Assembly: GCF_041081105.1 (NCBI RefSeq)
Contig: NZ_CP163528.1
Coordinates: 3,534,001 to 3,598,000, forward strand
DNA length: 64,000 bases
Reading direction: 5' to 3'
From: Promicromonospora sp. Populi
GTDB taxonomy: Bacteria > Actinomycetota > Actinomycetes > Actinomycetales > Cellulomonadaceae
Made by a program: the position numbers and the translations under genes. Shown one piece after another: positions 2,689-62,502 of this stretch (position 1 is its first letter; each line of letters opens with the position of its first letter). The notes beneath the pieces are model-generated. The model made no database searches and was not told the DNA's origin. It saw nothing but the letters and a program-made list of their open reading frames with translations.

Positions 2689-2784
2689 CCCCTGATCCTG
2701 CTGGAAAATCACCCGCAGTGCGAAATCGGGCTTTCCCGACGATGCTCGGCCGGCGTGCTTCGCGCGGCGGATCTCGCCCTGGGA

Positions 2785-4041
2785 TCAGCCGCCGAGCAGC
2801 GCCGCCACGTACCCGCCGCGGAACTTGCCCGCCGGGTCGAGGCGCCCAGCCAGAGCGGCGAAGTCGCCGAACCGCGGGTACAGGCCCGGGAGGTCGGCCA
2901 CCGGGACCGTGAACAGCTTGCCCCAGTGCGGCCGAGCGCCCAGCGGCAGCAGCGCGGCCTCCAGGGCGGGCAACGCGGCGCGGACGGCGGGCCAGTCCTG
3001 CCGCCACGTGAAGTGGAACGCCAGGCTGTCCTCGGGCGTGGTGCTGAGCCACAGGTCGTCGCCGGCGATGGTGCGGATCTCGGACGTGAGCAGCAGCGGG
3101 CCGAGCCGGTCCCCGAGGGCCCGCACGGCGCGGACGGCGTCGGGCCCCGCAGTGCGCGGCAGGAGGTACTCCGACTGCAGCTCCGCACCCAGGGAGGGCG
3201 TGAAGTCGAGCCGGAAGTGCGGCAGCCGGTCGAACCACGGCCCGGGCACCCCGCCCTGCTCGGTGCAGGCGACGGCGGAGACGTCGGGCAGGGGGTGCAT
3301 CGGCCGGGTCGCGGGCGCGGCACCCAACTCGACCGGGAGTGCGGGCGCGGCGCCCACGCCGTCGTCCACCCGGGACTTGCACCAGACCAGGCGTACGTCG
3401 GGCTCGAACCAGCTCGTGAAGACGCTGACGGAGTACGCGCTGCCCATGACCGCGTCGAGGTTGTCGAACAGCGCGTCCCACGGCAGGCCGGTGAAGACGT
3501 CCTGGCGTACGTCGAACGTCGGCACGGTCGCGAGCTCCACGCGCGTGACGACGCCGAGTGCGCCGAGCGCCACCACCGAGCCGGGGAAGTCCGCGTCGCC
3601 GCGGCGCAAGGTCAGCACGTCCCCGGAGGCGGTCATCAGCTCCAGCCCGACGACGTCGCCCGCGAGCGAGCGCGTCCCGTCCCCGGAGCCGTGGGTGCCC
3701 GTGGCGACGGCGCCGGCCACGGAGATGTGCGGCAGGGAGGCCATGGCGGCGAGCCCGCGGCCCTGCGCGTGCAGGTCGACGGCGACCTCGCCGTAGCGCA
3801 GGCCGGCGCGGACCGAGGCGACGCCGGTGGCGGGGTCGATCGTCAGCGGCGGCCGGTCGTCGTCGAGCAGGTCGAGCTGGACGTGCACACCCGTCGTGTC
3901 AGCGACGTCGCTGAACGAGTGGCGCGAACCGAGGGCCCGGACGCGGGGCTCACCGGCGACGGTGCCGGCAAGCTCCGCGAGGGTCCGGGGGCGCTCGATG
4001 CGCGCGGACGAGTACTTGAGGTTCGCTGCCCAGTTCTGCAC
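2785..4041 (-). CDS. FAD-dependent alditol oxidase / aldonolactone oxidase family protein
   Basis: Predicted soluble flavoprotein oxidising a sugar alcohol or aldonolactone with O2. An N-terminal PCMH-type FAD domain carries the flavinylation motif GSRHSFSDVAD; His41 would be the covalently linked residue. It also has the loop ISVAGAVATGTHGSGDG. The C-terminal half is of the D-arabinono-lactone-oxidase type, with HWGKLF near the end. Its 418 residues equal the length of Streptomyces coelicolor AldO, and N-terminal motifs fit AldO better than plant or yeast lactone oxidases. Xylitol, sorbitol or another polyol is possible. It stands alone between the STAS and transporter genes. Confidence 0.85.
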   Translation of the reverse strand: MQNWAANLKYSSARIERPRTLAELAGTVAGEPRVRALGSRHSFSDVADTTGVHVQLDLLDDDRPPLTIDPATGVASVRAGLRYGEVAVDLHAQGRGLAAMASLPHISVAGAVATGTHGSGDGTRSLAGDVVGLELMTASGDVLTLRRGDADFPGSVVALGALGVVTRVELATVPTFDVRQDVFTGLPWDALFDNLDAVMGSAYSVSVFTSWFEPDVRLVWCKSRVDDGVGAAPALPVELGAAPATRPMHPLPDVSAVACTEQGGVPGPWFDRLPHFRLDFTPSLGAELQSEYLLPRTAGPDAVRAVRALGDRLGPLLLTSEIRTIAGDDLWLSTTPEDSLAFHFTWRQDWPAVRAALPALEAALLPLGARPHWGKLFTVPVADLPGLYPRFGDFAALAGRLDPAGKFRGGYVAALLGG

Positions 4042-4083
4042 CGGACAAGCGTGCCACTGGTTCAGCTGAGCCGAGCTACGGGG

Positions 4084-4488
4084 TCAGGCGCTGGCCGCTG
4101 CGTTACGGACCACCGGGATCCGCTGGCTGATACCGACCATGTCCAGGACCTCCATCACCACGGCGGACGGCTCGCGGAGCAGGACGGGTGACCCCGTCTC
4201 CTCGCCGAGCACAAACACCTGGAGGATGAAGGCCACCCCGGAGGAGTCGATGAACGTGACGTCCCGAGCGTCGACGATGACGGGCTCGGGGTCCGGTCGT
4301 GCTGCGAGCGTGGCCATGGCCTCGCTCGCGTTCTCGCGCAGCAGCGCGTCGATATCGCCCCAGAGGGTCAGCACCGTGCCCTCGTAGGTGTTCCGGCATG
4401 CGATACCGGATCCCGGGCGTCCGGGAGCCAGGTCCTGCGCTGAGTCTGACGGGAGAGGGTCCATGGGGTCATTCGCTCCGTCCTGCAT
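4084..4488 (-). CDS. STAS-domain anti-sigma factor antagonist
   Basis: A cytoplasmic partner-switching protein of the SpoIIAA/RsbV type. A disordered N-terminus (MQDGANDPMDPLPSDSAQD) leads into a STAS domain. This contains TVLTLWGDIDALLRENASEA and the phosphorylation loop FIDSSGVAFILQVF, whose serine is the usual target of an anti-sigma kinase. The domain ends MVGISQRIPVV. I took ATG 4488, with GAGG 8 nt upstream, giving 134 residues; the reading frame extends further but upstream starts lack support. No cognate anti-sigma kinase lies nearby, so the sigma factor it controls is unknown. Confidence 0.85.
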   Translation of the reverse strand: MQDGANDPMDPLPSDSAQDLAPGRPGSGIACRNTYEGTVLTLWGDIDALLRENASEAMATLAARPDPEPVIVDARDVTFIDSSGVAFILQVFVLGEETGSPVLLREPSAVVMEVLDMVGISQRIPVVRNAAASA

Positions 4489-4702
4489 TGGTCGGGCCTC
4501 GACTTCGGTAGACACTGACTTCCACACTGACTTGGACGCTTCTTGGTGCTCTCTGACCGCCCCCTTGGCCGGGAGGGGCAAGAATTGCCTGAGGTGAGTG
4601 TTCACCCGGCACATGCCTTCCGTCCACCCCCGCGGCGTTACGGTCACGTTGCACGAAGGAGAACTGCCCGCCTCCGTGCCCTCGCGGGCCCGCTCGGCGC
4701 CC

Positions 4703-4721
4703 GCCTGAGCCGGGCTCAGGC
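4703..4721 (-). terminator. Compact hairpin across the YbaK stop codon
   Basis: GCCTGAGCC and GGCTCAGGC face each other around a single base. The TGA stop of the YbaK-like gene (4716-4718) lies inside the hairpin. There is no T-tract. It may be a terminator for the minus-strand gene. Confidence 0.4.
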
Positions 4722-5183
4722 AGGGTCGGTCACGTCCGCAACCGTGGCATCGAGCGCCGTCGTGAGATCAATGGCGTCGACCGTGGCGCCCACTCCGTGC
4801 GCACCTCCGCCGATCGACACGAGCCCCGGCTCACCGAGCCGGGAGTCCGCGACGACGGGCCACTTGTGGAACGACCCGAACGGAGTGATGGTTCCCCGTT
4901 CATAGCCTGTGACCTCGAAGGCCACCTCTTTGCTGGGCATCGACAGGCGCGAGACGCCGAGCAGGGCGCGCAGCTTGGGCCACGAGATCTGCCGGTCTCC
5001 CGGGACCAGCACGAACAGGAAGTCGTCGTCGGCCCGGCGCACGACGATCGTCTTGATCAACTTCGACGGATCGACCCCGCGCGCGGCCGCCGCCTCGGCG
5101 AGGCTGCCGACCTGGTCATGCCGCTTCAGCTCGAACGGGATGCCGGCCGCCTCGAGCGCCGCGACGGCACGTTGTTCGCTCAT
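4716..5183 (-). CDS. YbaK/EbsC-type aminoacyl-tRNA deacylase
   Basis: Trans-editing hydrolase of the YbaK/ProX superfamily, which removes mis-charged amino acids such as Cys from tRNA-Pro. The 155-residue protein is a single domain. It opens RAVAALEAAGIPFELKRHD and carries the lysine-bearing strand LIKTIVVRR. Later it has LVPGDRQISWPKLRALLG, GYERGTITPFG and a C-terminal GLVSIGGGAHGVGATVDA glycine loop. Start ATG 5183 has AGGAA upstream. The substrate cannot be deduced: the family includes Cys-, Ala- and Pro-specific members. Confidence 0.88.
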   Translation of the reverse strand: MSEQRAVAALEAAGIPFELKRHDQVGSLAEAAAARGVDPSKLIKTIVVRRADDDFLFVLVPGDRQISWPKLRALLGVSRLSMPSKEVAFEVTGYERGTITPFGSFHKWPVVADSRLGEPGLVSIGGGAHGVGATVDAIDLTTALDATVADVTDPA

Positions 5184-5257
5184 GGCATTTCCTATCCCGA
5201 AAACCCGAGTCTCTGTTGTCTCACAATATGGTCAAGATATCGCCCGCGGGTAACGGC

Positions 5258-7072
<1,815 letters not shown>

Positions 7073-47615: not shown

Positions 47616-48088
47616 CAGGATTCCTCCTGTCCTATCCCGCGGACCGCTCGCGCCTCGGCATCGGCCGAGACGTCGAGCGAGCTGATCCCGATCAGTGTCA
47701 GGAACGTGGTCTCGTACGTGACCTGGGTACCCACGCTGACGGTGGCGCCGTTGACCGCGGTCACGCCACCCTGCACGCCCAGCGCGTCGAGGGTGTCGGC
47801 GGCGGCCTGCGTCGCGCGCGCGGGATCCACCTCGGGAGGCAGTCCCAGCTGCGCGCGGTCGATCCGGATCTGCTGCGCGGCGGCTCGCGCCGCCTGATCG
47901 GCGGCGTACTCGGCCTCGTCCTCGGCCTGCAGCCGCCCGCCGCCGTCGACCACCAGGCCGATGGCGATGATCAGCGCGGGCACCATGCCCGCCGCGAGGA
48001 TGTTTATGTCGCCCCGTTCCCGCACCCTACGAACGCCCGACGGCGCCCGCCTCGTCCGCAGCCACATCCGCATGATCCCCCTGGTCAT
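47615..48088 (-). CDS. TadG-like pilus assembly protein
   Basis: A 157-residue membrane protein: basic N-terminus, then RERGDINILAAGMVPALIIA and the helix IGLVVDGGGRLQAEDEAEYA, the hallmark Tad/TadG start. A short extracytoplasmic domain follows. It ends with the TGA that overlaps the LysM-BTAD start. TadG-like minor pseudopilins are thought to help pilus assembly or anchoring; this one is far shorter than proteobacterial TadG. Confidence 0.82.
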   Translation of the reverse strand: MTRGIMRMWLRTRRAPSGVRRVRERGDINILAAGMVPALIIAIGLVVDGGGRLQAEDEAEYAADQAARAAAQQIRIDRAQLGLPPEVDPARATQAAADTLDALGVQGGVTAVNGATVSVGTQVTYETTFLTLIGISSLDVSADAEARAVRGIGQEES

Positions 48089-48531
48089 GACCGCCCCCGA
48101 TAGGCGTCGAGCACCGACGTCCCCGTAGCGCTGATGGTCCGTGAGCCGGGCGCGCCCGGCAGGCCGAGATCACTCAACGGCACCACGCACTCGACGCGCA
48201 CCGTGATGGTCCCGACGGTCCCGAGCGGCAGAGCGAACGCGTCAGTCGCCGGCATGACCGACGTCTGCGCACAGCGCACCCCGGAGTTCACCAGCGTCGA
48301 GGTCGCGGTCGACGTCGCCTGCGCCCCGGCCACGCTGGCCGTCCGGCTGATCGACGCCGCCCGCGCGGCCTCGTTCGCCGCCGACTGCACCACACCCTCG
48401 GCCAGCACGAGCCGCCCCGCCATCACCAGGAGCAGCCCGATCAGCAGCAGCATGGGAAAGATCACGACGGTGTTGATCGCGACGTTCCCGCGCTCGCGAT
48501 CGGGCCTCCCGTGCTCGCCGTCGGACCTCAT
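48085..48531 (-). CDS. TadE-like minor pseudopilin (second copy)
   Basis: A 148-residue protein with RERGNVAINTVVIFPMLLLI then GLLLVMAGRLVLAEGVVQSA and ANEAARAASISRT: the TadE pattern of a charged N-terminus, one helix, then an Ala-rich segment. A Cys pair (VRCAQ, VECVV) lies in the exported part. Overlaps both neighbours by 4 nt (ATGA). Confidence 0.85.
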   Translation of the reverse strand: MRSDGEHGRPDRERGNVAINTVVIFPMLLLIGLLLVMAGRLVLAEGVVQSAANEAARAASISRTASVAGAQATSTATSTLVNSGVRCAQTSVMPATDAFALPLGTVGTITVRVECVVPLSDLGLPGAPGSRTISATGTSVLDAYRGRS

Positions 48532-48908
48532 GGCCCCACCACTGCCGATGTGAACCGCTCGACGGGCCCCGTGGCCGACTGCTCGATCCGCAGCCCGCGG
48601 AACCCCGGGACGATCGACGGCGCCAGCCCGACGACGCGCGCGGTCGCCGTATCTTGCCCGCGGGTCACCGACACGTTGACCGATGCGAACGCGTCGCCCC
48701 CGCGCGCGAGCCGCTCCGCCGCCTCCGCGTACCCCGCCTCAAGGCTGCCGCCCTCGACCCGCGCCGCCTGGACCGCGCCGTTAGCGACGGACTGGGCAGT
48801 GTTCTGCGCGTGGAAGTAGAGCATGCCCTGCACCATCGCGAAGATGAGCATGAGGACTATCGGGTAGGTGATGACGGTCTGGAGAGAGGCGGCGCCGCGT
48901 TCGTCCAT
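48528..48908 (-). CDS. TadE-like minor pseudopilin (first copy)
   Basis: A 126-residue protein: MDERGAASLQTVITYPIVLM, then LIFAMVQGMLYFHAQNTAQS and an Ala-rich amphipathic segment. This is the standard TadE pseudopilin arrangement. It starts 3 nt after the prepilin stop and ends in an ATGA overlap with the next TadE-like gene. Confidence 0.87.
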   Translation of the reverse strand: MDERGAASLQTVITYPIVLMLIFAMVQGMLYFHAQNTAQSVANGAVQAARVEGGSLEAGYAEAAERLARGGDAFASVNVSVTRGQDTATARVVGLAPSIVPGFRGLRIEQSATGPVERFTSAVVGP

Positions 48909-48911
48909 GCG

Positions 48912-49205
48912 TCATCCCCCGAGCTGCGACATATATCGCTCGACGAGGCCCTGGATCGCGGCCCCGAGCGCGATGGCGATACCCAGGCCAATTACAGACA
49001 GCACAACGATCTCGATGGACTCCAGCCCCGCCTCGTCCGGCTCGCCCGCGCGGCCGGCGGCAAGCCGGCGACGTAGCTCGGCCGAGCGCTCGGCGAACCG
49101 GGTGTTCAGGGTGTCGACTCGGCCGCGAGCAGCGTCGAGGCGCAGTGCGGCACGGGCGGTGGCGCGCGCCGCCGCCGTCCGGCCTTGGCTCAGGTGCTGG
49201 TTCAT
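48912..49205 (-). CDS. Flp-type prepilin with a 60-residue leader
   Basis: A 97-residue protein likely to be the major pilin. A charged helical leader of 60 residues (RTAAARATARAALRLDAARG and on) ends EPDEAG. The processing site follows as G60/LESIE, with Glu at +5, and then the helix IVVLSVIGLGIAIALGAAIQ. The mature pilin would be only 37 residues. The prepilin peptidase cleavage motif is inferred from the Gly/Glu+5 rule. The leader is much longer than the usual 10-25 residues. No prepilin peptidase gene is in this operon. Confidence 0.75.
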   Translation of the reverse strand: MNQHLSQGRTAAARATARAALRLDAARGRVDTLNTRFAERSAELRRRLAAGRAGEPDEAGLESIEIVVLSVIGLGIAIALGAAIQGLVERYMSQLGG

Positions 49206-49290
49206 GGTGACTCCTGGGGTGCTGTCGACTTCAACAAATGGGTAGGACGCGGCTCGTGTGACATCCGCATGCCACAGGGGGCGGGCCGGA

Positions 49291-50211
49291 TCAAGGGGCG
49301 GTCTGAAACATAGTGACCCCGATTGGGAAGATAAGCATCAGAAAGTACACAAAAACTGTCAACGTCCCAGGCACCGTCATCCGCACGGTCGCGTCGTGCG
49401 CGATCTGCTGCTCGACGTCGAGCTGCGCGTCGCGCATTGCCGCCGCCTTGGACTGCAGCTGGTCGTGGATCGCCGAGCCCTGCGTACCCGCGAGCTCCAC
49501 GATGGCGGCAACCTCGCCGAGCGCGTCCACCCCCACCTCTTCGCCGAGCTCGCGCAGCGCCACCCACGGCGCCTGACCCTCCCAGCGACCCCGTTCGAGC
49601 GCCTCGGCGATCCGCCGGAACGGCCACGACCCGGCGACCTGCGCCGCGGCGAACGTGGCCTGCGTGGCGCCCGCACCGGAGATGCGCTCGATGGCGAGCA
49701 GCTCCAGGTACGTCGACACGGCGCGGGAGAACTCCTGCCGGGCGCGCCGGGCCTTCGTCCGCGCGTCGAGGTCGGGCAGGAACCAGGCGCCGAGGGCGAA
49801 GATGATCGATGCCCCCAGCGGCACCCCTACCGGCATGCCTAGGTTCAGCAGCCCCACGCACAGTCCCAGGAACGGCACCGCGACCAGGGCGATAACCGCG
49901 CCGAGCGCCTTCTCGCCGTAGTGGTCGGTCGCCGTCTTGCCGATGAGGTCGAGGTCCGCCCGGGTGGGGCCCCACCGGCCCAGCAACCTGACGGGCAGCC
50001 GGCGCTGCGCCCACGCGCCGAACACCTGCGTGTATCGCTGGGTAGAGGTGAGCTCGCCGCCGGCGGACACGGTGATGGGCTCCACCTTGTCGTCGCCGCT
50101 CAGCCGGTCCAGCGCGGACTGGAGCCGCGGCGTCGACGGAAGAAGCTCGCGCACGACGAGGAACAGGCCGAACCCGGCCACCGCTCCGAAACCCACCGCC
50201 CAGGGCCACAT
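49291..50211 (-). CDS. tadC: TadC-like inner-membrane platform protein (T2SS F domain)
   Basis: A 306-residue protein with an N-terminal helix (WAVGFGAVAGFGLFLVVREL), a mid-membrane pair (GAVIALVAVPFLGLCVGLLN; GVPLGASIIFALGAWFLPDL), a T2SSF cytoplasmic helix bundle (FSRAVSTYLELLAIERISGA) and a C-terminal helix (TVFVYFLMLIFPIGVTMF). It partners TadB to form the pilus assembly platform. ATG 50211 was taken because it starts 1 nt past the tadB stop; the frame extends upstream into tadB. Confidence 0.87.
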   Translation of the reverse strand: MWPWAVGFGAVAGFGLFLVVRELLPSTPRLQSALDRLSGDDKVEPITVSAGGELTSTQRYTQVFGAWAQRRLPVRLLGRWGPTRADLDLIGKTATDHYGEKALGAVIALVAVPFLGLCVGLLNLGMPVGVPLGASIIFALGAWFLPDLDARTKARRARQEFSRAVSTYLELLAIERISGAGATQATFAAAQVAGSWPFRRIAEALERGRWEGQAPWVALRELGEEVGVDALGEVAAIVELAGTQGSAIHDQLQSKAAAMRDAQLDVEQQIAHDATVRMTVPGTLTVFVYFLMLIFPIGVTMFQTAP

Positions 50212-50212
50212 G

Positions 50213-51091
50213 TCAGGCCCTCCGCTCGTCGGGCAGGAACCGCGGGATCGGCTGCCCCAGGCTGATCTTGCGCATCCACAGCAGGCAGACCACATACGCG
50301 CAGAACAGGATCACCGCGATGACCTGGCCCAGCGGCGAGTCATAGCCACTCAGGTAGCCGGACATCGCCGTGGCCCCCAGCACCAGGAGCGTCACGATCG
50401 TCACCCAGCGCACCGTCGCGCGGCCGGTGGAGCGCTCGGTCTCGATCTCGCGCCGGGCCTTGGCCTGCGCGGACAGGGACTCGGCGAGCTGCCGGAGCGC
50501 GGGCGCCACGGCTCCGGTGCGGTTGTCCGACTCGAGGATCATCGCCGAGGCGATCATGTCCGCCGAGTAGTCGTTCATCTCCTCGGCCCACCGGTAGAGC
50601 GCGGGCTTGATGGGCTGGCGCGCCTCCAGGCGCGCCACCAGCCGCGCGAGCGAGGGCCGCACGGAAGGCGCGGCGCTGTGCAGGGTCGCGGCGATCCCCT
50701 GCTCCAGCCCGACGGCGCCGCCGGACAGCACACCGATCAGCGACCGCACCCAGGCGGTCAGGTCGGTCAGCTTCTCCACCTCGTTGGACTGCGTGGTGGT
50801 GCGGAACAGCGACGGCAGGCCGACGATCAGCACCGGCACGATCAGCACGAGCGACCACCAGCCGGTCAGGATGCCGATGACAAGGCCCGCCGCCGCGCCG
50901 ACCCCCAGCACCTTGCGCTGCGGATACAGCGGCCCACCCTTGGTCAGGCCGAGCAGGCGGAGCAGCCCGTGGAAGGGCGGGGTGGTGCGCACCGGCTTCG
51001 GCGTCGGCTCGTACTTCTGCGCGCCGACGATGACGAACCACACCCCGAGGCCCAGACCGAGCCCGGTCAGCACCGCGATCAGCGTGATCAT
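50213..51091 (-). CDS. tadB: TadB-like inner-membrane platform protein (T2SS F domain)
   Basis: A 292-residue protein. Helices at the N-terminus (LIAVLTGLGLGLGVWFVIVG) and middle (GAAAGLVIGILTGWWSLVLI) precede the T2SSF region LTAWVRSLIGVLSGGAVGLE, then ASAMILESDNRTGAVAPALR. C-terminal helices follow (VTIVTLLVLGATAMSGYLSG; VIAVILFCAYVVCLLWMRKI). Starts in an ATGA overlap with tadA. Confidence 0.88.
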   Translation of the reverse strand: MITLIAVLTGLGLGLGVWFVIVGAQKYEPTPKPVRTTPPFHGLLRLLGLTKGGPLYPQRKVLGVGAAAGLVIGILTGWWSLVLIVPVLIVGLPSLFRTTTQSNEVEKLTDLTAWVRSLIGVLSGGAVGLEQGIAATLHSAAPSVRPSLARLVARLEARQPIKPALYRWAEEMNDYSADMIASAMILESDNRTGAVAPALRQLAESLSAQAKARREIETERSTGRATVRWVTIVTLLVLGATAMSGYLSGYDSPLGQVIAVILFCAYVVCLLWMRKISLGQPIPRFLPDERRA

Positions 51092-52746
51092 GGCGTCCCC
51101 CAGAGCCCGTCCCGGTAGTTCAGCAGGCTCGCGTCGAAGCCCTCAGCCTCCAGGTCGGCGAGGAACGACGGCGTGACGTTGGGCACCGCGCGCCCGTTCG
51201 GCCCGGGCTCAAAGACGTCGGTGATCGCCACCGGGTTGCCGGCCTCGCCGCGCGTCACCTCGATCACCTCGGAGAGGTACCGGCGGCGGAGGCCGTCGGC
51301 TCCGACGTCGACCCGGAGGAAGACGATGAGGTCGACCGACTGCGCCACCTGCCGGTACGCATAGGTCTCCGACAGCGTGGAGTCCTGCACTGCCATACCG
51401 ACCAGGCGTTCGACGACGTCGCGCGCGCCGTCGGCGTGCACCGTGGACAACGAGCCGTTGCCCATCTGCATCGCCTGGAACATGGACACGATCTCGGGGC
51501 CGCGCACCTCACCCACGATGACGCGGGAGATGTTGTGCCGCAGCGACTCGTAGACGTTGACGTTCGTATTGATCTCGCCCACGCGCCGTCCCGACGTGTT
51601 CATCTCACCGGAGCCCTCGCGCGTGCGCAGCGCCACCACCCGCTTGTGCTTCTCGGGTTCGAGGTGCAGGTAGAGCTCGTAGTCCGTCTCGATGGTGGCG
51701 ATGGACTCCCAGGGATCAAGGCCAGCGCACAAAGCCCGCAAAAGGGTCGTTTTACCGCTGCCCTGGCCCTGCCCGGAGACGACAATCGACTTGCGCGCTC
51801 GCACCGCCGCCGTCAGGAACTCGACCAGCACCGTGTCGATGGTGTCGTTCCGGCGCAGCAGCTCCAGGTCCACCGACTGCAGGCGCTGCAGGCGGATAGT
51901 GACGCGCGGCCACGGCACCACCCAGCCGACGGCGGCGAGGCGCACGCGACCCGGCAGGTCCAGGTTGAGGAACGGGTTAGCGCGTGTGAACGACCGCTCG
52001 TTCGCGGGGTCGCGCGCCGCGAGGAACTGGAGGAAGTCGATGAGCTCGGCGTCGGAGTCCGCGATGGGCTCCGCGTAGGTACGGCGGCCGTCGCCCATCA
52101 GCATGAGCACGGGCGCGGTCCCCGTGATCTCGATGTTCTCCACGTCGGGGGTGTCGATGAGCGGCTGCAGCCGGCCCAGCCGGAACAGAGCGTCGAACAG
52201 CGCGCGCGTCACCTCGACCTGGTACTCGGTGGTCCAGTTCCGCTGGCCGCCGGAGAGCAGGGCGTCGTTGTGGTCGCGCACCACCTGCTGGATCAGCTCC
52301 TGGCCGAGCGCCTCGCGCTGCTCCTCGTCCAGCTCGCGGGCCGCGAGCGCCGTCGTCAGCCGTGAGGACACCTCGCCGCGCAGGCTGTTGACCTGGCGCC
52401 AGAACTCGGAGTCGCGCAGGCGCGGGTTGCCCGGCTGGCCGTGGTACTCACGGCCCGCCCTGGCCACGGCGCCGACCCACGGCGAGGCGCCGCTCCCCGG
52501 TGGCTGGACCCTGCCGTCGGGGGTCCGCACTGGCGCGGCGGTGCGGGTCCCGGCGCTGGCATGGCGTGCCGTGCCGGTGCCCTGTTCCACGGGTACGGCC
52601 CAGGACTGCTGCGTCGGGGCGGCGCCGTCGGCAGTCCGGGGCTGTGCCCCGACGACGGGCGCGCGGCGCGGCGCGGCGGGCGCCTGGTCGTCCGCCTCGT
52701 GGAAGATCGGCAGCGAGGAGAGGTCGGGGAAGTCAGGCGTGCTCAT
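51088..52746 (-). CDS. tadA: TadA/CpaF-type pilus assembly ATPase
   Basis: Hexameric secretion ATPase powering pilus extension. The 552-residue protein has a disordered Pro/Ala N-terminus, then the CpaF domain with TEYQVEVTRALFDALFRLGR and Walker A VVSGQGQGSGKTTLLRALCA. It also has the Asp/Glu box IATIETDYELYLHLEPEK, the Walker B region ISRVIVGEVRGPEIVSMFQA and the His box NGSLSTVHADGARDVVERLV. ATG 52746 overlaps the stop of the CpaE-like gene; upstream codons to 52773 add only Arg-rich sequence. Confidence 0.92.
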   Translation of the reverse strand: MSTPDFPDLSSLPIFHEADDQAPAAPRRAPVVGAQPRTADGAAPTQQSWAVPVEQGTGTARHASAGTRTAAPVRTPDGRVQPPGSGASPWVGAVARAGREYHGQPGNPRLRDSEFWRQVNSLRGEVSSRLTTALAARELDEEQREALGQELIQQVVRDHNDALLSGGQRNWTTEYQVEVTRALFDALFRLGRLQPLIDTPDVENIEITGTAPVLMLMGDGRRTYAEPIADSDAELIDFLQFLAARDPANERSFTRANPFLNLDLPGRVRLAAVGWVVPWPRVTIRLQRLQSVDLELLRRNDTIDTVLVEFLTAAVRARKSIVVSGQGQGSGKTTLLRALCAGLDPWESIATIETDYELYLHLEPEKHKRVVALRTREGSGEMNTSGRRVGEINTNVNVYESLRHNISRVIVGEVRGPEIVSMFQAMQMGNGSLSTVHADGARDVVERLVGMAVQDSTLSETYAYRQVAQSVDLIVFLRVDVGADGLRRRYLSEVIEVTRGEAGNPVAITDVFEPGPNGRAVPNVTPSFLADLEAEGFDASLLNYRDGLWGTP

Positions 52747-53660
52747 GAGGCTCTCCCGGCGTCGCCGCGCCACGGTGCGACCGGCTGCGCGGATCGCGGG
52801 CCGGTACCCGCGTGGTCGGGCCCGCGGCGCGGGCCGGGTCCGGCCTGCGGGCCGGGCCCGCCGTCGCGCGGACCGGTGGAGAACCGGCTGCGCCGCTTCT
52901 CGATCCGGTCCTGGATCCGTGAGATGACGGGACCGGCCGAGCGCACGAGCGCGGACGTCGGGTAGCGGCGGCCCGCGGGCGAGCCCACGGACAGCACCTC
53001 GGCGTTCACCGGGTCCCAGGCCAGCGAGCCAACGGTGCCCAGGCCGAGGGTCCGCGAGATCTCGGCCGCGTCGTACGGCCGGCCGGGGCCGACGGTCAGG
53101 ACGGTGAGGTTGGTGAGCTCGCGCGCCGCGGCGTCGACCAGCGAGGTGCGGGACTTGACGAGCTCGCGGGTCACCGCGATGTCGGGCAGGCGCGAGCCGG
53201 TGGTGATCAGCACCTGGTCCGCGAGCCGGACGATGGGCTCGCGGTCTTCGCGCACGATGCCGCCGGTGCCGAGCCGGCCTAGGTCGACCAGGACGTCGAC
53301 GCCCCCGCGTTCCAGCGCGACCAGCTGGTTGGCGAGCGGTCCCCAGAGGTTCGCGACGGCGGGTGCGGTGTGCGGACTGACGATGCCGGGCAGCAGCTTG
53401 CGGTCCGGATCGTTTCGAACCAATGGAATGGTCTGCTCCCAGAAGGCGGCTTCGAGGTCACCATGGGAGTGGGCGATCGCGAGGGGCTGCAGGCCGCGGT
53501 CGTGCGGCAGCTGGCCGCGGAAATACCCGGCCAGGATCGAGGAACCGGCGAGGTCCGCCTCCACGAGGAGGACCGGCCGGGGCCACTGGAGCGCAAGCAC
53601 GAGCGCCGCCGTCGTGGTGCCGGGCGAGCCCTTCGCGTTGGCGAGAGCAATGAGAGCCAC
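52743..53660 (-). CDS. CpaE/TadZ-like ParA-family ATPase
   Basis: A 305-residue P-loop ATPase with a deviant Walker A (ANAKGSPGTTTAALVLAL). It also has a Walker A'-like strand PVLLVEADLAGSSILAGYF and VLVDLGRLG. In Tad systems such proteins place the secretion complex at its site in the cell. The first ~250 residues form the ATPase; the last ~50 are a Gly/Pro/Arg tail. Overlaps tadA by 4 nt and follows the SAF-domain gene by 3 nt. Confidence 0.85.
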   Translation of the reverse strand: MALIALANAKGSPGTTTAALVLALQWPRPVLLVEADLAGSSILAGYFRGQLPHDRGLQPLAIAHSHGDLEAAFWEQTIPLVRNDPDRKLLPGIVSPHTAPAVANLWGPLANQLVALERGGVDVLVDLGRLGTGGIVREDREPIVRLADQVLITTGSRLPDIAVTRELVKSRTSLVDAAARELTNLTVLTVGPGRPYDAAEISRTLGLGTVGSLAWDPVNAEVLSVGSPAGRRYPTSALVRSAGPVISRIQDRIEKRRSRFSTGPRDGGPGPQAGPGPRRGPDHAGTGPRSAQPVAPWRGDAGRAS

Positions 53661-55975: not shown

Positions 55976-56305
55976 ATGAGCAAGGACGAGCTCGACCAGG
56001 CGCCCGGCGCCGGACTCGGCAGCACCGACCTCGGCAGTTCGGGCCTGCGCAGCGCGGATCCCGCCGCCCCGGACTTCGACCGCACGTGGTCCCTGCTGCG
56101 GGACACCGCCGAGGTGCACGCAGCCCGCGGCGAGGTGGCGCCCGTGGTGCGCGACCTCATCGCCTCCCTCGCCGAGGACCCCCTCGGCGAGCAGGACACA
56201 ACCGTGCGCCTGATCGAGGCGCTCGACAGCCCCCGCGTGCGCAGCGCACGCGAGGCCCGCGAGCGCATCCGGGCGGACCTGCAGAACGAGGTGCGGACGC
56301 GATGA
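55976..56305 (+). CDS. Small soluble protein opening the T4SS operon
   Basis: Unrecognised 109-residue protein. A Gly/Ser/Ala-rich first third (APGAGLGSTDLGSSGLRSAD) leads into helices (TWSLLRDTAEVHAARGEVAP; VRSAREARERIRADLQNEV). No signal or membrane segment. ATG 55976 has GGGAGAGG upstream; the stop overlaps the next start (ATGA). The conserved operon position suggests a T4SS accessory role. Confidence 0.7.
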   Translation: MSKDELDQAPGAGLGSTDLGSSGLRSADPAAPDFDRTWSLLRDTAEVHAARGEVAPVVRDLIASLAEDPLGEQDTTVRLIEALDSPRVRSAREARERIRADLQNEVRTR

Positions 56306-57438
56306 GCTCGGTTCTTGTGCGACGGCGTGGCAAGAAGTCGGCTGAGCCGGCCGAGCTGCCGCCCCCTGCCGACGTCGCCTCCGGTACCGCCTCGCCGTGG
56401 ACCGGTGGACCCGATCAGCCCGCGACGCCGTCGTCGTCGGGCGGGGGAGGCGACGACGAGAACCAGCCACCGCAGGTGGTGGAGTGGTCCAACGGACCCG
56501 CCCTGGTGACCAAGGCCTGGGGTGCCCTGCTCGCGCTGGCGCTGCTGGCCGGGCCGGCCGCCCTGGTGTGGACCGCGCTGCGCCCCGAGGCCGCCCCCGC
56601 CTCGGCGGTCGCCGGCTCAGCCGATACCGCTCAGGCGGCGGCGGCCCAGGAGCGGGCGATCGAGCTCGTGGAGACCTGGCTGCGGGCCGACAGCGACGAC
56701 CAGCAGCTGATCGCCTCCCTCACGAACGCCCCGGTCGGCTCACTCCCCCAGGAGGGCCTGACCATCCGCGACTCGTCGGTGGCACAGATCGAGCAGGCGG
56801 AGGACAACGTGTGGTCGGTGACGGTCGGCGTCGACGTCGCGGAGCCCGCTCCCGGCTCGACACCCCCGCCGGCCGTGGAAGGCGAGGAGGCCGAGGTGCC
56901 CCTGGTCTGGGTGCGCCGCTACTTCCAGGTGCCGGTGCTGGTAAGCCGCACCGAGACCGAGTGGTCCGGGCCCCACCTCGCGGTGACCGCCGTCGCCCTC
57001 CCCGCGCCCGTCCCGGGCCCGGCGGCCGCCGCCGAGCCGCCGGACCTCGACTACCCCGAGACCATCTCTCCGACGTCGGCCGCGGGCCAGTCCGTGGCCG
57101 GGTTCCTCGCGGCGATGATCGCGGGCGACGGCGAGATCACGCGCTACCTGCGCCCCGGCACCGCCATCTCGGCCATCAGCCCCGCTCCGTACTCGGCCGT
57201 CTCCGTGACCGACATCAACGGGTCGCACGAGGTCACGGAGGACCCGGCCGACGGCGACGGCACGCACGCACTGATCACCGTCGAGCTCACCCGGCTCGAC
57301 GGCAACACGACCACCGCCCAGTACGTCCTCACGCTTGTTGCGCGGGACGGCCGCTGGGAGGTTGCCGGCGTTCAGCCGGCCGTCCGTATCGACACGACGC
57401 CATCCGGCACGATCGACTCCGGCACCGCCGGGGAATAA
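56302..57438 (+). CDS. TcpC-like (VirB8-type) conjugation protein
   Basis: A 378-residue bitopic membrane protein. A cytoplasmic Pro/Ser/Gly-rich N-terminus is followed by the helix AWGALLALALLAGPAALVWT and two extracytoplasmic NTF2-like domains. These are about residues 105-245 (AIELVETWLRADSDDQQLIA; WVRRYFQVPVLVSRTETEWS) and 255-365 (SVAGFLAAMIAGDGEITRYL; ALITVELTRLDGNTTTAQYV). This is the TcpC arrangement of Gram-positive conjugation systems, equivalent to VirB8, which scaffolds the transfer channel. Confidence 0.82.
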   Translation: MSSVLVRRRGKKSAEPAELPPPADVASGTASPWTGGPDQPATPSSSGGGGDDENQPPQVVEWSNGPALVTKAWGALLALALLAGPAALVWTALRPEAAPASAVAGSADTAQAAAAQERAIELVETWLRADSDDQQLIASLTNAPVGSLPQEGLTIRDSSVAQIEQAEDNVWSVTVGVDVAEPAPGSTPPPAVEGEEAEVPLVWVRRYFQVPVLVSRTETEWSGPHLAVTAVALPAPVPGPAAAAEPPDLDYPETISPTSAAGQSVAGFLAAMIAGDGEITRYLRPGTAISAISPAPYSAVSVTDINGSHEVTEDPADGDGTHALITVELTRLDGNTTTAQYVLTLVARDGRWEVAGVQPAVRIDTTPSGTIDSGTAGE

Positions 57439-57849: not shown

Positions 57850-58656
57850 GTGACCGAGACCGCGAAGTTCTATACGAAGGCCCGACGCATCCCCATGCTG
57901 GTGGGGAAGCTACCCAGCGGCGGGCGCATCTGGGGCGGCCCGTACACCATCACCCAGGTGGGAGCGGGCGCCGTGGTGGCGTTCGTCCTGTGGCGGACCG
58001 CTCCGCTGTGGGCTCAGATGGGCGGCTTCATGAACATCGCGGTCGCCGTCGGGGTGGTCGTTGGCGTGGTCTGGGCCACCGGCAAGCTCCCGAGCAGCGG
58101 TCGCAACCCCGTCGCGTTCGTCATGGACGCGATGAACCTGAGCTCGAGCCGGGGACGGCTGTCCGGCGGGCAGGTCACCCTGCCCAAGCCGCGCCTGATC
58201 ACCCACCGGGTAATGGTCGTGCTGCCCGCACCTCCCGCCACCGCAGCTCGGCGCAGTGCGCCCGTGGCTGGCCCGGCCCGTTCGGTTGCGGTTCCAGTAG
58301 CTGGTCCGACGGCGGGGCCGGCTCCGGGGCAGACGGTTAGGCCGGCCGGCCCGCAGCGCCCGACCGTCGTCGGGCCGGTCCCGACCGAGCTCCTCCCGGA
58401 GCTGACCGGCCACGGTCCCGCGGACGCGACCTTCGAGGGCCGGCAGCTTCAGCCGGCGACCAGCCCACGACCCCAGCCGGTCCCGGACAAACGCTCGCCC
58501 GCGGACTGGGCGGCAGCAGCCGCAACCGCTGCGGCAACGGCCAAGGACCGCGAGAACGCCGACCTCACCGGCGTCGGGCAGCTGCTCGCCGGCAAGCCCG
58601 CAGGAACGAAAGAACCCGGCGAACGCACCGCCCCCACCACTCCGCGAGAGGACTGA
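57850..58656 (+). CDS. PrgI/TcpE-like (VirB3-type) membrane protein
   Basis: A 268-residue protein. The N-terminus carries FYTKARRIPMLVGKLPSGGR and two membrane helices (YTITQVGAGAVVAFVLWRTA; NIAVAVGVVVGVVWATGKLP), then GRNPVAFVMDAMNL. The last ~140 residues are a Pro/Ala/Thr-rich cytoplasmic tail. Such proteins precede the VirB4-like ATPase in Gram-positive T4SS operons and anchor it to the membrane. Start is GTG 57850 after GAGGAGG. Confidence 0.75.
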   Translation: MTETAKFYTKARRIPMLVGKLPSGGRIWGGPYTITQVGAGAVVAFVLWRTAPLWAQMGGFMNIAVAVGVVVGVVWATGKLPSSGRNPVAFVMDAMNLSSSRGRLSGGQVTLPKPRLITHRVMVVLPAPPATAARRSAPVAGPARSVAVPVAGPTAGPAPGQTVRPAGPQRPTVVGPVPTELLPELTGHGPADATFEGRQLQPATSPRPQPVPDKRSPADWAAAAATAAATAKDRENADLTGVGQLLAGKPAGTKEPGERTAPTTPRED

Positions 58657-58662
58657 GCCCCC

Positions 58663-61600
58663 ATGCTGAGCCACATCTCGGCCCTGACCGACGGCCTCAT
58701 GTGGACCCGCACCGGGACCGTGTGGGCCCTCTGGCGTGTGTCCCCCGTGCCCTACGCGTTCCAGCCCGACGACAAGAAGCACGCGGCGCGGCGGCACCAC
58801 ACCGCGCTGTACCGCGCGCTGCGCGGCGAGTCGCTGCACCTCGGGCTGACGGCGGCCACCGACCCGGCGTCGGTGGTGCTCTCGATGATCGAGGGTGTCG
58901 ACCTGACCGAGCGTGAGGCGTGGGCCGCGGAGTGCGAGGCCACCCTCGACTTCCTGGAGCAGATCCCGATCGGGCGGCGTGTGCACTGGATCGCCGCGCC
59001 CCTGGCCAACCCGGGCGCCAAGGCATTCAGTGAGCCGCTGCGCGCGTCCTGGTCCTCGCTCCAGGACACCCTGATGATGCCGCGCGCCGTGCCGGGCCGG
59101 CACGCGATCGGCGAGCGGGCCGCGCAGGCGGAGGCACTGCGCAAGGAGATGCCCGCCGCGTTCGACCCGCGGCCGGCGACCGTGGCCGAGATGGCCTGGA
59201 TGTTCGGGCACGCCATGCAGCGCGGCCTCGGTCTGGACACCGCGGTGCCCCTCGACGGGTCGCTCGACGCCGAGATGCACTTGTCGGGGCCTTCGGTGCT
59301 GCCGTCGTCGCTGGTCGATCCGGCCGGTCAGACGGACTCCGAGAAGCGCCTAGGGCCGCTGCAGATCCTGAAGCAGCCCTACGTGAAGGTGCTCGACCCC
59401 ACCAACCCCGACCTCGCCTCGTACCAGACGACGCTCGTGGTGGCCGATACGCCGTCGGGCGGCATCGTGTACCCGGGGTGCGAGTGGATCGGACGTGTCG
59501 ACGAGTCCGGGGTGCCGTGCGACTGGGCCATCCGGATGACCGTGCGCTCGCGCGACGAGGTGACCAACCGCAACCGGCGCGCGGTGCGCACCCTGAACGA
59601 CCAGTTCGACCAGCGCTCCGAGGAGGAGCGCGCGGGGTCGTCCCTGGACACGACGGCGCGCGCTCTGGGCGAGTACCAGGCGGTGATGGACGCCGACGAG
59701 CTCGAGGTCGAGGTGGACGCCACCACGATGTTCACCGTCTCGGGCCACACCCCTGAGCAGGTGCTGGACGACGCCCGGGACCTGACCAAGTACTTCGCCG
59801 CCATGCAGTTCTCGCTGCGCACCGACCCCACGATCCAGCCGACGCTCTTCGAGGCCACCCTGCCGGGCACCCCGACCCCGCGCGCCGTGCGGGAGTACTC
59901 GCAGATCACGACGGCGCGCGCGTTCTCGGCAGCGGTGCCGTTCGCCACCACCGAGCTGGGCGACACCTCCGGTGCGCTGTTCGCCCTGGAGATCTCGAAC
60001 GGGGCGGCCCGGCCGAACCCGGTCTTCGTGAACCTGGCCGGAGCCACCGACAAGCTGGACGTCGCGCTCGCGATGGGCTTCGTGGGCGAGCTGGGTGCGG
60101 GTAAGGCTCTCGCCCTCGACACGCCCATCCCGACGCCGAGCGGCTGGACCACCATGGGCGACCTGGCGCCGGGGGACCGCGTCTTCGACGAGAACGGGGC
60201 GCCCACGGAAGTCGTCGGCGTCTCCCCCGTCATGCGGGACCACCAGTGCTACCAGGTGGTGTTCTCCGATGGATCGACGATCGTGGCCGACGCCGAGCAC
60301 CTATGGACGACGGTTCCCCTGAAGACCCGCGGCCATCAGGCGAAACTGAACCACAAGCGCAAGCAGCGCGGCGAGACGCCCGTCGACGTGCTCGACGCGA
60401 CGCTCGACCTGAGCGGACCCGGGTGGCACGAACACGGCACTGTCGCGACGACCGAGCAGCTCCGCGAGACGCTCCTGGCGGGCAAACAGCTCAACCACGC
60501 GGTGCCGGTCGCCGGGGCCCTGGAGCTTCCCCCCGTCGACGTCCCCGTCAACCCCTATTACCTCGGCCTCTGGCTCGGCGACGGGAGTTCATGGCGCTCC
60601 GAGATCACTACCGCAGACCCCGAAGTGCTCTCCCGCCTCGAGCTGTGCGGATACGAGGTCAGGAAGCTGTCGGCGGAGTACGCGTACGCTGTCCGGCTCC
60701 CGCACGAGGCGGATGACGGTTTCACGCCGGAGCAGCGGCCCTGCTTGCAGTGCGGAGCCCAGTACCTCGCTTGGTACGAGCAGCGTCGCTATTGCGGCAA
60801 GACCTGCGAGGCTGCCGGACGCAAGGCTGGCGTGCCACCCCTGCCGCCACGCCGCTGCGGCCGGTGTGACAAGCCCATGCTCAGGACCAGCACTGGCCGG
60901 CGGTGTGCGGACTGCCGCAAGGCGTCATCGATGACCGGACGTCTCGACTCGCTCGGCGTGCTCAAGAACAAGCACATCCCAGCTGCGTACCTGCGTGCGG
61001 GAACGATCCAGCGCCGAAGCCTCCTCGCCGGGCTGATGGACTCCGACGGCACAGTGACGCCGTCGGGCAGCGTGGAGTTCACGAACACGAATAAGCGGCT
61101 GGCGCGAGACGTCCATGAGCTCGCGCTGTCACTTGGATACAGGTCGGTGCTCCGAGAGGGGCGTGCCCGCCTGAAGGGGCGGGACGTCGGCCCGAAGTGG
61201 GCCGTCACCTTCACGACCACTGACGATGTCTTCATGCTCCAGCGAAAGGTCGACACGCACCTGGAGCGCGGGGAGAACCGCAGCGCCGCCCGAAACGCTT
61301 ACCGGTACGTCACCGAGATCCGGCCGGTGAAGTCCGTTCCCGTGCGGTGCATCCGGGTGGCAGCAGAATCGAGCCTGTTCCTGGCGGGGGACGCGATGAT
61401 CCCCACCCACAACTCGGTCAGCATGAAGACCGTGGCCATGGACAACGTCGACATGGGCGCCACGCTCATGGCGGTGGACCACACCGAGATGGGCGAGTGG
61501 GGCATCGCCGTCTCGGAGATCCCCGGCTCGCAGGTCGTGGAGATCTCCGAGGACGCGACGGTGTCCATGGACCCGCTGCGGATCCTGCCGCCGGCGCAAG

Positions 61601-62502
61601 CACCGCGGGTGGCCCGCGCCTTCATCACCGTGCTGCTGTCGGTGCAGACCAAGTCCGAGCAGAACGTGCTGCTGTCCAAGGTGCTGCAGACGGAGTACAT
61701 GTGGCGGCACAAGATCACCTCGCTCGGGTCGCTCGCGCGGCACCTCGAGGCGGACTGCGAGTTCCCGGGCGCCCGGATGCTCGCCGACGAGATGCGGATC
61801 TTCTCCGAGCTCGACTTCGGGCGCGCTCTGTTCGACGACTCGCTGCCGCCGCTCGACCTGAGCTCGCCGGCGATCGTGCTGCACACGCACAAGATGCAGC
61901 TGCCCTCGAAGGCCGACATGGAGCACGGGCACCTGTTCGCCGAGCTCAGAGCCGAGAAGGTGTTCGGCCGCGCCACGTTCGCGCTCATCGCGGCTCTCGC
62001 CAGGTACCGCTGCTTCGCGGACCGCTCCCGGCTCGACATCTTCGCCGCCGACGAGGCGTCCAAGACCATGTCGTCACCGGAGGCGGCAGAGGAGATCGGC
62101 ATGTTCATCCGGGACGGCCGTAAGCACAAGGCGGCGCTGCTGCTGGGCAGCCACGACGCCGAGGAGGACTTCGGCAACGAGGTGGTGCGCGGGCTGATCC
62201 CGTTCCGCGTGCTGCTGCGCCACCGCGACGCGAACCTGGCCCGCCGTGGCCTGCGGTGGCTGCACGGGTTGCCGACCACCGCACCGGTGGACGAGGGCCT
62301 GGTCAAGCTCGTCACGGAGGGCACCGCGCCGGTGACCGACGCCGCCGTCGGCGTGGTCGAGGAGCGCCGCGGGGAGTGCCTGATCCGGGACTTCCAGGCC
62401 CGCTACGGCCGGGCGAAGGTCATGGCGCCGCTCGTGGAGAGGCGCGCCGAGACCGTCAAGACCACGCCGACCAGCTCCTCCGGTGCGGTGATCGGGGCAT
62501 GA
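58663..62502 (+). CDS. VirB4-like T4SS ATPase interrupted by an intein
   Basis: Cytoplasmic ATPase powering the secretion channel. The precursor is 1279 residues; the mature host protein would be 843. Residues 1-481 hold the N-terminal VirB4-like domain (LTDGLMWTRTGTVWALWRVS) and end GFVGELGAGK. The intein occupies 482-917. Host sequence resumes at Ser918 (SVSMKTVAMDNVDMGATLMA), so splicing would rebuild a P-loop GELGAGKS. Walker B is LDIFAADEASKTMSS; later come GMFIRDGRKHKAALLLGSHD and RVLLRHRDANLARRGL. ATG 58663 is 6 nt after the previous stop. The 3' end overlaps the next gene by 4 nt. Confidence 0.9.
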   Translation: MLSHISALTDGLMWTRTGTVWALWRVSPVPYAFQPDDKKHAARRHHTALYRALRGESLHLGLTAATDPASVVLSMIEGVDLTEREAWAAECEATLDFLEQIPIGRRVHWIAAPLANPGAKAFSEPLRASWSSLQDTLMMPRAVPGRHAIGERAAQAEALRKEMPAAFDPRPATVAEMAWMFGHAMQRGLGLDTAVPLDGSLDAEMHLSGPSVLPSSLVDPAGQTDSEKRLGPLQILKQPYVKVLDPTNPDLASYQTTLVVADTPSGGIVYPGCEWIGRVDESGVPCDWAIRMTVRSRDEVTNRNRRAVRTLNDQFDQRSEEERAGSSLDTTARALGEYQAVMDADELEVEVDATTMFTVSGHTPEQVLDDARDLTKYFAAMQFSLRTDPTIQPTLFEATLPGTPTPRAVREYSQITTARAFSAAVPFATTELGDTSGALFALEISNGAARPNPVFVNLAGATDKLDVALAMGFVGELGAGKALALDTPIPTPSGWTTMGDLAPGDRVFDENGAPTEVVGVSPVMRDHQCYQVVFSDGSTIVADAEHLWTTVPLKTRGHQAKLNHKRKQRGETPVDVLDATLDLSGPGWHEHGTVATTEQLRETLLAGKQLNHAVPVAGALELPPVDVPVNPYYLGLWLGDGSSWRSEITTADPEVLSRLELCGYEVRKLSAEYAYAVRLPHEADDGFTPEQRPCLQCGAQYLAWYEQRRYCGKTCEAAGRKAGVPPLPPRRCGRCDKPMLRTSTGRRCADCRKASSMTGRLDSLGVLKNKHIPAAYLRAGTIQRRSLLAGLMDSDGTVTPSGSVEFTNTNKRLARDVHELALSLGYRSVLREGRARLKGRDVGPKWAVTFTTTDDVFMLQRKVDTHLERGENRSAARNAYRYVTEIRPVKSVPVRCIRVAAESSLFLAGDAMIPTHNSVSMKTVAMDNVDMGATLMAVDHTEMGEWGIAVSEIPGSQVVEISEDATVSMDPLRILPPAQAPRVARAFITVLLSVQTKSEQNVLLSKVLQTEYMWRHKITSLGSLARHLEADCEFPGARMLADEMRIFSELDFGRALFDDSLPPLDLSSPAIVLHTHKMQLPSKADMEHGHLFAELRAEKVFGRATFALIAALARYRCFADRSRLDIFAADEASKTMSSPEAAEEIGMFIRDGRKHKAALLLGSHDAEEDFGNEVVRGLIPFRVLLRHRDANLARRGLRWLHGLPTTAPVDEGLVKLVTEGTAPVTDAAVGVVEERRGECLIRDFQARYGRAKVMAPLVERRAETVKTTPTSSSGAVIGA
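60106..61413 (+). mobile_element. Intein (class 3 type) with LAGLIDADG homing endonuclease
   Basis: A 436-residue protein-splicing element. It begins with Ala (ALALDTPIPTPSGWTTMGDL) instead of Cys or Ser and ends MIPTHN before host Ser. Trp67 (block B, ADAEHLW), Cys415 (block F, VRCIRV) and Thr434 (block G, PTHN) form the W-C-T set that defines class 3 inteins. There the block F Cys replaces the N-terminal nucleophile. The endonuclease has both motifs, YLGLWLGDG (Asp159) and LLAGLMDSDG (Asp314), so it is probably active. Between them are two zinc-ribbon-like units: Cys213, 216, 230, 234 and Cys251, 254, 267, 270. Confidence 0.92.

Follow-up and report, generated by a model that had tools for sequence, protein, structure and literature searches.

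What kind of element interrupts the P-loop of a VirB4-like secretion ATPase in Promicromonospora sp. Populi, and how did it get there? The gene lies in a 64,000-nucleotide stretch of the chromosome (assembly GCF_041081105.1, contig NZ_CP163528.1, positions 3,534,001 to 3,598,000), which we call the window and whose own numbering is used below. Its forward-strand open reading frame at 58663-62502 encodes 1279 amino acids, and residues 482-917 form an in-frame, stop-free insert of 436 residues (60106-61413) that splits the Walker A motif into GFVGELGAGK, ALALDTP...MIPTHN and SVSMKT (N-extein, intein and C-extein, respectively). A sequence-only reading of the window had taken this insert for an active class 3 homing element that had entered a conjugation ATPase, and had suggested that splicing conditions could gate DNA transfer. 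Our analysis confirmed what that reading had observed and supported part of its interpretation: the insert is very likely a class 3 intein, full-length and probably able to splice, with a LAGLIDADG homing endonuclease, recently inserted between the Walker A Lys and Ser of a chromosomal VirB4-like ATPase gene.

Class 3 inteins are defined, in the available text of PMC3196547 and PMC5050341, by a WCT triplet (Trp at B:12, Cys at F:4 and Thr at G:5). The triplet is complete in the insert as Trp67 (60304-60306), Cys415 (61348-61350, the predicted splicing nucleophile, placed by the PDB sequence match and the alignment) and Thr434, and position 1 is Ala, not Cys, Ser or Thr. The block B His65 and the end of block G (Thr434-His435-Asn436, 61405-61413) are also in place, and the nucleophilic +1 Ser (61414-61416) doubles as the Ser of the P-loop in the mature ATPase. 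The N-terminal splicing region (residues 1-95, 60106-60390, with Ala1, Cys48, His65 and Trp67) aligns with residues 1-69 of the DnaB intein 6bs8, and Cys48 (60247-60249) corresponds in position to the redox Cys48 in DnaBi1 of M. smegmatis; all these features are on the forward strand. In an alignment of the window intein with 67 chosen relatives (68 rows, in which 35 relatives are of VirB4 type and the rest of other kinds, including the PF12846 rows P0049 and P0064), A1, C48, H65, W67, C415, T434, H435 and N436 were invariant. Because this alignment excludes rows of DinG and terminase type, those with a short nuclease and most of those with several inteins, conservation counts taken from it tilt to the form with two cysteine units described below. 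The best matches of the intein in a PDB sequence search were class 3 DnaB inteins (6bs8, E = 3.8e-28), with gp41-1 and PI-SceI next, and its AlphaFold model (pLDDT 96.1) superposed on 6bs8 at 1.3 A over 125 of 125 residues, that is, on a Hedgehog/intein fold. The class 3 identity is well supported by the residues and the predicted structure.

Between the splicing regions the model carries a PI-SceI-like nuclease (Foldseek, PI-SceI E = 1.1e-17). Two motifs, each ending in an acidic residue, were found as had been claimed: LGLWLGDGS with Asp159 (60562-60588, forward strand) and LLAGLMDSDG with Asp312 and Asp314 (61021-61050, forward strand; Pfam LAGLIDADG_3, PF14528, E = 7.1e-11). Asp159 is kept in 65 of the 68 rows and Asp314 in 64; both are lost in P0004 and P0005, the first in P0006 and the second in P0037 and P0040, while the window copy keeps both. 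In the copy of Myceligenerans pegani (L053, P0005), Asn159 and Ala314 replace the two aspartates and eight cysteines of zinc-binding type are all retained. The same cysteines, likewise anticipated from the sequence, form two C4 units on the forward strand of the window between the first nuclease motif and a KHIP sequence: Cys213/216/230/234 (60742-60807, modelled with strands at 209-212 and 219-222 and a helix at 232-240) and Cys251/254/267/270 (60856-60915, modelled with a helix at 268-274).

The host gene (58663-62502, forward strand) would encode 843 residues without the insert, and the N-extein part of its Walker A motif, GELGAGK, lies at 60085-60105 on the same strand. The host matches Pfam AAA_10 (PF12846, E = 2.9e-29). 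The protein of an intein-free congener (843 residues), modelled from a 17-row alignment at a pLDDT of only 76.5, found the R388 TrwK/VirB4 chains as its best PDB fold matches (8rtd, E = 1.7e-26), followed by Thermoanaerobacter VirB4 (4ag5/4ag6), which points to a VirB4 fold with a Walker A/B ATPase domain and agrees with the host assignment made earlier. The NCBIfam TraC and VirB4 models gave weak matches far below their cut-offs. A VirB4 profile searched by sequence against the PDB returned no match at E 0.01; the VirB4 identity is based on the fold search and Pfam.

Evidence on the history of the insert comes from genes that lack it. Among 13 Promicromonospora genomes (the window's included), the gene is intact and uninterrupted in 11, truncated in one (G105, C-terminal part only) and split by the intein in one, that of the window. 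In all 11 intein-free congeners the codons flanking GK|S are contiguous (DNA identity 89-92% in the N half and 89-94% in the C half), so that the borders of the insert coincide with GK|S and the comparison of homologues with and without intein yields exact empty sites. In blastn comparisons the junction was reached in some congener rows, while others stopped about 10 bases short of it because of local differences. The distribution is patchy beyond the genus. In a family sample of 200 genomes, 24 had the gene: two with the intein (the window and G068), one truncated and 21 without. All but one (L066) of 31 named loci could be recovered, and two of these 30 carried the intein (Myceligenerans pegani and Actinopolymorpha pittospori). 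A class sample had matches in 46 of 394 genomes; 29 new loci from it were read (L075-L103), and no intein was flagged among them. Because the intact empty gene is present in 11 of 13 genus genomes, a recent gain is likely, and the intein is probably a recent arrival in this gene. The part of the earlier claim that a mobile-type element had entered the gene is therefore supported by the empty sites and the two nuclease aspartates.

When host residues 470-960 were searched against about 5.8 billion proteins, 5729 proteins at E <= 0.001 were obtained among 7992 scored candidates (those sharing most words). In the best 120 relatives, which were listed, the insertion site was GK|S/T in 109 (best local alignment), the first intein residue was Ala in 115, the intein ended in THN in 118, and the +1 residue was Ser in 92, Thr in 27 and Cys in one. 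Since these features are so common among relatives and the match to 6bs8 is strong, the insert is not a chance arrangement. The hosts among these 120 comprised VirB4-type ATPases, DnaB, AAA_5, DinG-type helicases, PF19044 and terminase-type proteins; PF12846 hosts numbered 39, all 39 with the insertion at GK, so that VirB4-type hosts are already common in databases. In a literature search covering the listed titles and abstract starts, with few subscription papers among them, we found neither a pairing of a class 3 intein with VirB4 nor a description of the C4 module, which is not proof of absence.

In an intein tree of 65 rows, 37 VirB4 inteins formed one clade (100*) and 14 DnaB inteins another (100*). 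Intein identity exceeded extein identity in 388 of 561 pairs; for P0021 and P0031 the values are 73% and 39%. Such a mismatch, together with the VirB4 intein clade, is the pattern expected from homing within the VirB4 family. On an extein tree built with a quick method (34 intein-bearing and 27 chosen intein-free rows), the intein state changed 12 times, at least 10 of these changes being forced by starred branches, while shuffles averaged 20.1 changes. P0003, the other intein-bearing host that groups with Promicromonospora, sits with the intein-free P. umidemergens (97*) and away from the window, the exact placement of which has weak support (39). GC3 is 0.86 in the intein, compared with 0.95 and 0.97 in the flanking halves of the gene. 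Compared with the 11 congeners, the window gene has private bases at 34 sites of its N half, including -9 and -4, and at 11 sites within the first 960 bases of its C half; an apparent C-half indel in L013 and L014, two of the congeners, makes this second count approximate. The P-loop reads GAGK in the window and GSGK in 11 of 11 intein-free congeners. Short co-conversion would explain GAGK and the private bases at -9 and -4, but the signal is modest and no more than suggestive.

The GAGK/GSGK difference was also considered as a sign linked to the intein, but was given little weight. Ala occupies this position in five of five intein-bearing rows in or grouping with Promicromonosporaceae, and the nearest 16 intein-free loci have 15 Ser and one Ala. 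However, five remoter intein-free loci of the family sample have four Ala and one Ser, and counts over all tree rows are mixed (26 Ala, six Ser and two Gly with intein; 13 Ala, 13 Ser and one Gly without).

Several results weigh against a simple history of recent entry by an active element. The change count on the extein tree is unable to separate gain from loss, and the VirB4-type intein P0049 does not belong to the VirB4 clade of the intein tree. Intein identity rises with extein identity (Spearman 0.56), which, together with 12 changes compared with 20.1 in shuffles, indicates vertical inheritance as well. The 15-base stretch at the junction ranks only 41 of 2389 in divergence. Comparison of the nuclease with the M. 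pegani copy (dN 0.227, dS 1.133) is no proof of activity here, because dS is near saturation and M. pegani lacks both aspartates. The C4 module, too, is not universal in VirB4 inteins, as all eight cysteines are kept in 30 of 36 VirB4 rows (window included), and P0046 and P0110, which are outside the alignment, are without it.

If the element works as its anatomy suggests, Cys415 would act together with His65 and Thr434, the counterparts of the DnaB1 triad, and attack the Lys|Ala junction, giving the block F branched intermediate expected of class 3 splicing; the thioester would then be handed on to Ser+1, Asn436 would cyclise and the GAGKS P-loop would be whole again, the ATPase presumably being inactive until then. 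The endonuclease would cut the P-loop codons of intein-free VirB4 alleles and repair would copy the intein in, possibly carrying a few flanking bases along. Natural empty alleles in close, named Promicromonospora species make homing and conditional splicing of a class 3 intein testable side by side.

Two other histories were weighed against recent entry of a homing intein. The endonuclease may be inactive now and the intein kept by vertical descent alone, which we regard as unlikely: decay is common nearby, as seen in M. pegani and in P0004, P0006, P0037 and P0040 (without one or both aspartates), and the congeners G097 and G123 have nuclease-free DnaB-type inteins of 142 residues, yet the window copy retains both aspartates and the eight cysteines, and its nearest extein relatives are intein-free, pointing to recent entry. 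A VirB4 intein already present in the ancestor of Promicromonospora, followed by precise loss from the other species, seems very unlikely. P0003 is a second intein-bearing gene in this grouping (extein 97%, intein 89%) and parsimony is blind to the direction of change, but repeated exact loss within the genus would be required, the P0003 extein groups with P. umidemergens and not with the window, and GC3 in the intein is below that of the gene.

The remaining alternatives concern control of splicing. In the available text of PMC6195587, oxidation links Cys48 of DnaBi1 to the catalytic Cys118 and splicing stops; Cys48 and Cys415 of the window intein correspond to this pair. A regulatory switch, in which the Cys48-Cys415 disulphide blocks splicing under oxidation and makes assembly of the VirB4 motor conditional, would draw on the presence of both residues in the window and in 68 of 68 rows, and on the P-loop position, which would tie ATPase activity to splicing. 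We nevertheless judge it improbable, since the host can do without it, as shown by the intact intein-free gene in 11 of 13 genus genomes, and conservation of Cys48 is equally explicable as catalytic: the same source terms Cys48 non-conserved and reports that seven of seven changes tested, Thr included, abolish DnaBi1 splicing, yet the DnaB-type mini-intein of G123 has Thr there. By analogy with DnaBi1, redox gating of splicing as such is plausible and zinc gating less likely. Zinc is described in PMC7360933, as far as its text was available, as a reversible inhibitor of class 3 DnaBi1 held by C118, V119 and Y128; gating by this route is less likely here because the position of the zinc-binding Tyr is Phe425 in the window (Phe in 29 of 36 VirB4 rows). 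It is most improbable that the C4 module is a zinc sensor controlling splicing and not part of DNA recognition. This idea would fit the zinc inhibition of DnaBi1 and the retention of eight cysteines in P0004 and P0005, which lack both nuclease aspartates; against it, DnaBi1 is a mini-intein without nuclease (PMC7360933) whose zinc site differs as described, and the module lies within the endonuclease and is missing from the two nuclease-free DnaB-type inteins of G097 and G123. The wider proposal that environment-dependent splicing (through the disulphide, perhaps with zinc through the C4 module) licenses the VirB4 motor under permissive conditions only, and that the intein clade owes its spread to installing such a switch in one and the same secretion ATPase throughout actinobacteria, appears decidedly doubtful. 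The homing class 3 intein proposed at the outset remains our preferred explanation.

With two sets of four conserved cysteines, zinc binding is predicted for the C4 module. All eight cysteines are kept in 61 of the 68 rows, and a double C4 unit within the intein was found, with a loose pattern, in 77 of the best 120 listed relatives. In members where it was measured, the span from the first nuclease motif to KHIP is about 63-94 residues without the module and about 130-145 with it. Pfam showed only a weak resemblance of this stretch to ribosomal S27, below the cut-off, and PADLOC returned nothing beyond a weak homing-endonuclease match. By these counts the module is a trait of the group and not peculiar to the window intein. 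It most likely serves the endonuclease, as a structural part or as an aid in reading DNA, rather than acting as a switch for splicing.

The DnaB-type inteins of the genus provide a parallel. The same genome has a DnaB-type class 3 intein (L028, G000:C1:3754758-3755981) that is 47% identical to the window intein and has the nuclease and C4 units. Among the 13 Promicromonospora genomes, the DnaB-type site carries a full intein of 408 residues in four and the mini-intein in two, with no DnaB-type match in seven, and this variation indicates that intein gain and loss are under way in Promicromonospora. The mini-intein of G123 (L033), with its natural Thr at the redox Cys48 position, is a candidate redox-blind comparison.

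The VirB4-like gene is embedded in a set of T4SS-like genes on the forward strand. Upstream are a TcpC-like component of a type IV secretion system (T4SS) at 56302-57438 (PF12642, 26.4 bits, just below the cut-off of 27) and, at 57850-58656, a membrane protein without Pfam match, which from gene order we take to be at the PrgI/SCO6880 position. A membrane protein of 659 residues at the VirB6 position, likewise placed by gene order and without Pfam match, starts at 62499 and extends beyond the window end (64000). Tad pilus genes adjoin on the reverse strand (48085-52770), including a TadE-like gene (48085-48528, PF07811) and a T2SSE/TadA-type ATPase (51088-52770, PF00437); other neighbours are an M23 peptidase and membrane proteins without clear Pfam match. 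About 40 kb (window coordinates 43195-83353, window and downstream) align with congener G117 and largely with G048, and synteny with M. pegani extends from about 51 to 72 kb. The G105 locus (L043) aligns only from 61732 on; most of VirB4 and the T4SS genes that precede it are seemingly lost there.

Conjugation as the function of the locus received no support from this neighbourhood. Genome-wide, PF12696, PF02534, PF10412, PF03432 and PF02486 had no match (other families were not searched for); the sole TrwC-type relaxase (PF08751, L185; contig positions 1996250-1997341) is separated from the locus (3.59 Mb) by about 1.6 Mb, and the nine sites matched by FtsK_SpoIIIE (PF01580) are all over 250 kb distant. 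In the available text of PMC5050341, 'conjugal transfer' occurs once, in a reference title. Conjugation by this locus is unproven, and the proposed gating of DNA transfer goes beyond the evidence, as does the name conjugation ATPase. Because no relaxase or coupling-protein match is nearby and synteny is shared with congeners, we call it a chromosomal T4SS-like locus and name no substrate.

Similar elements were seen on plasmids. The TraD gene (2446-5418) of the IncC-type plasmid pKAZ5 (KR827394.1, L186) is interrupted at GSGK|T, in the P-loop of the coupling protein, by an intein that has class 3 features and is not mentioned in the annotation shown, and similar tblastn matches occur in several enterobacterial plasmids. 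On the Curtobacterium plasmid D40 (L187), the P-loop of an 'ATP-binding protein' (2588-6244) is uninterrupted, and a class 3-like intein follows downstream of it, after VVIIDPK, which marks a second insertion site in such ATPases.

Among known systems, VirB4, TrwK and TraC share the fold and the AAA_10 domain with the host, which shares only 10-17% identity with the listed VirB4 chains of solved structure and whose locus has no nearby match to the relaxase or coupling-protein families searched. M. smegmatis DnaBi1 and M. chimaera DnaB1 (6bs8, 6own, 6rix) have in common with the window intein the class 3 WCT chemistry, Cys48 and the splicing fold, and DnaBi1 also uses a P-loop K|S site; the solved forms lack a nuclease and reside in a replicative helicase, whereas the window intein has a LAGLIDADG nuclease and a twin C4 module in a VirB4-like ATPase, with Phe425 in place of Tyr128 of DnaBi1. 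Full-length actinobacterial DnaB class 3 inteins, including that of this genome, have the same P-loop site type, nuclease and twin module but form a clade apart from the VirB4 inteins. Phage inteins such as TerL1-a, located in the P-loop of terminases (PMC5050341, available text), are of class 3 too, at K|T of Walker A; when 36 of 80 viral loci were inspected, the stretch was measurable in 32, with a double C4 unit in one (L172) and a single CxxC in 15. PI-SceI/VDE, HO and WHO likewise have a LAGLIDADG nuclease on an intein scaffold, to which HO and WHO add CxxC zinc fingers. According to the available part of PMC7282813 (2020), HO and WHO were the only intein-zinc finger fusions known; in these yeast proteins, which have no exteins, the zinc fingers follow the intein-like region, while the bacterial intein of the window looks competent to splice and has its module within the nuclease. 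If its C4 units bind zinc, this large bacterial group, with a zinc-type module inside the nuclease, looks like an exception to that count.
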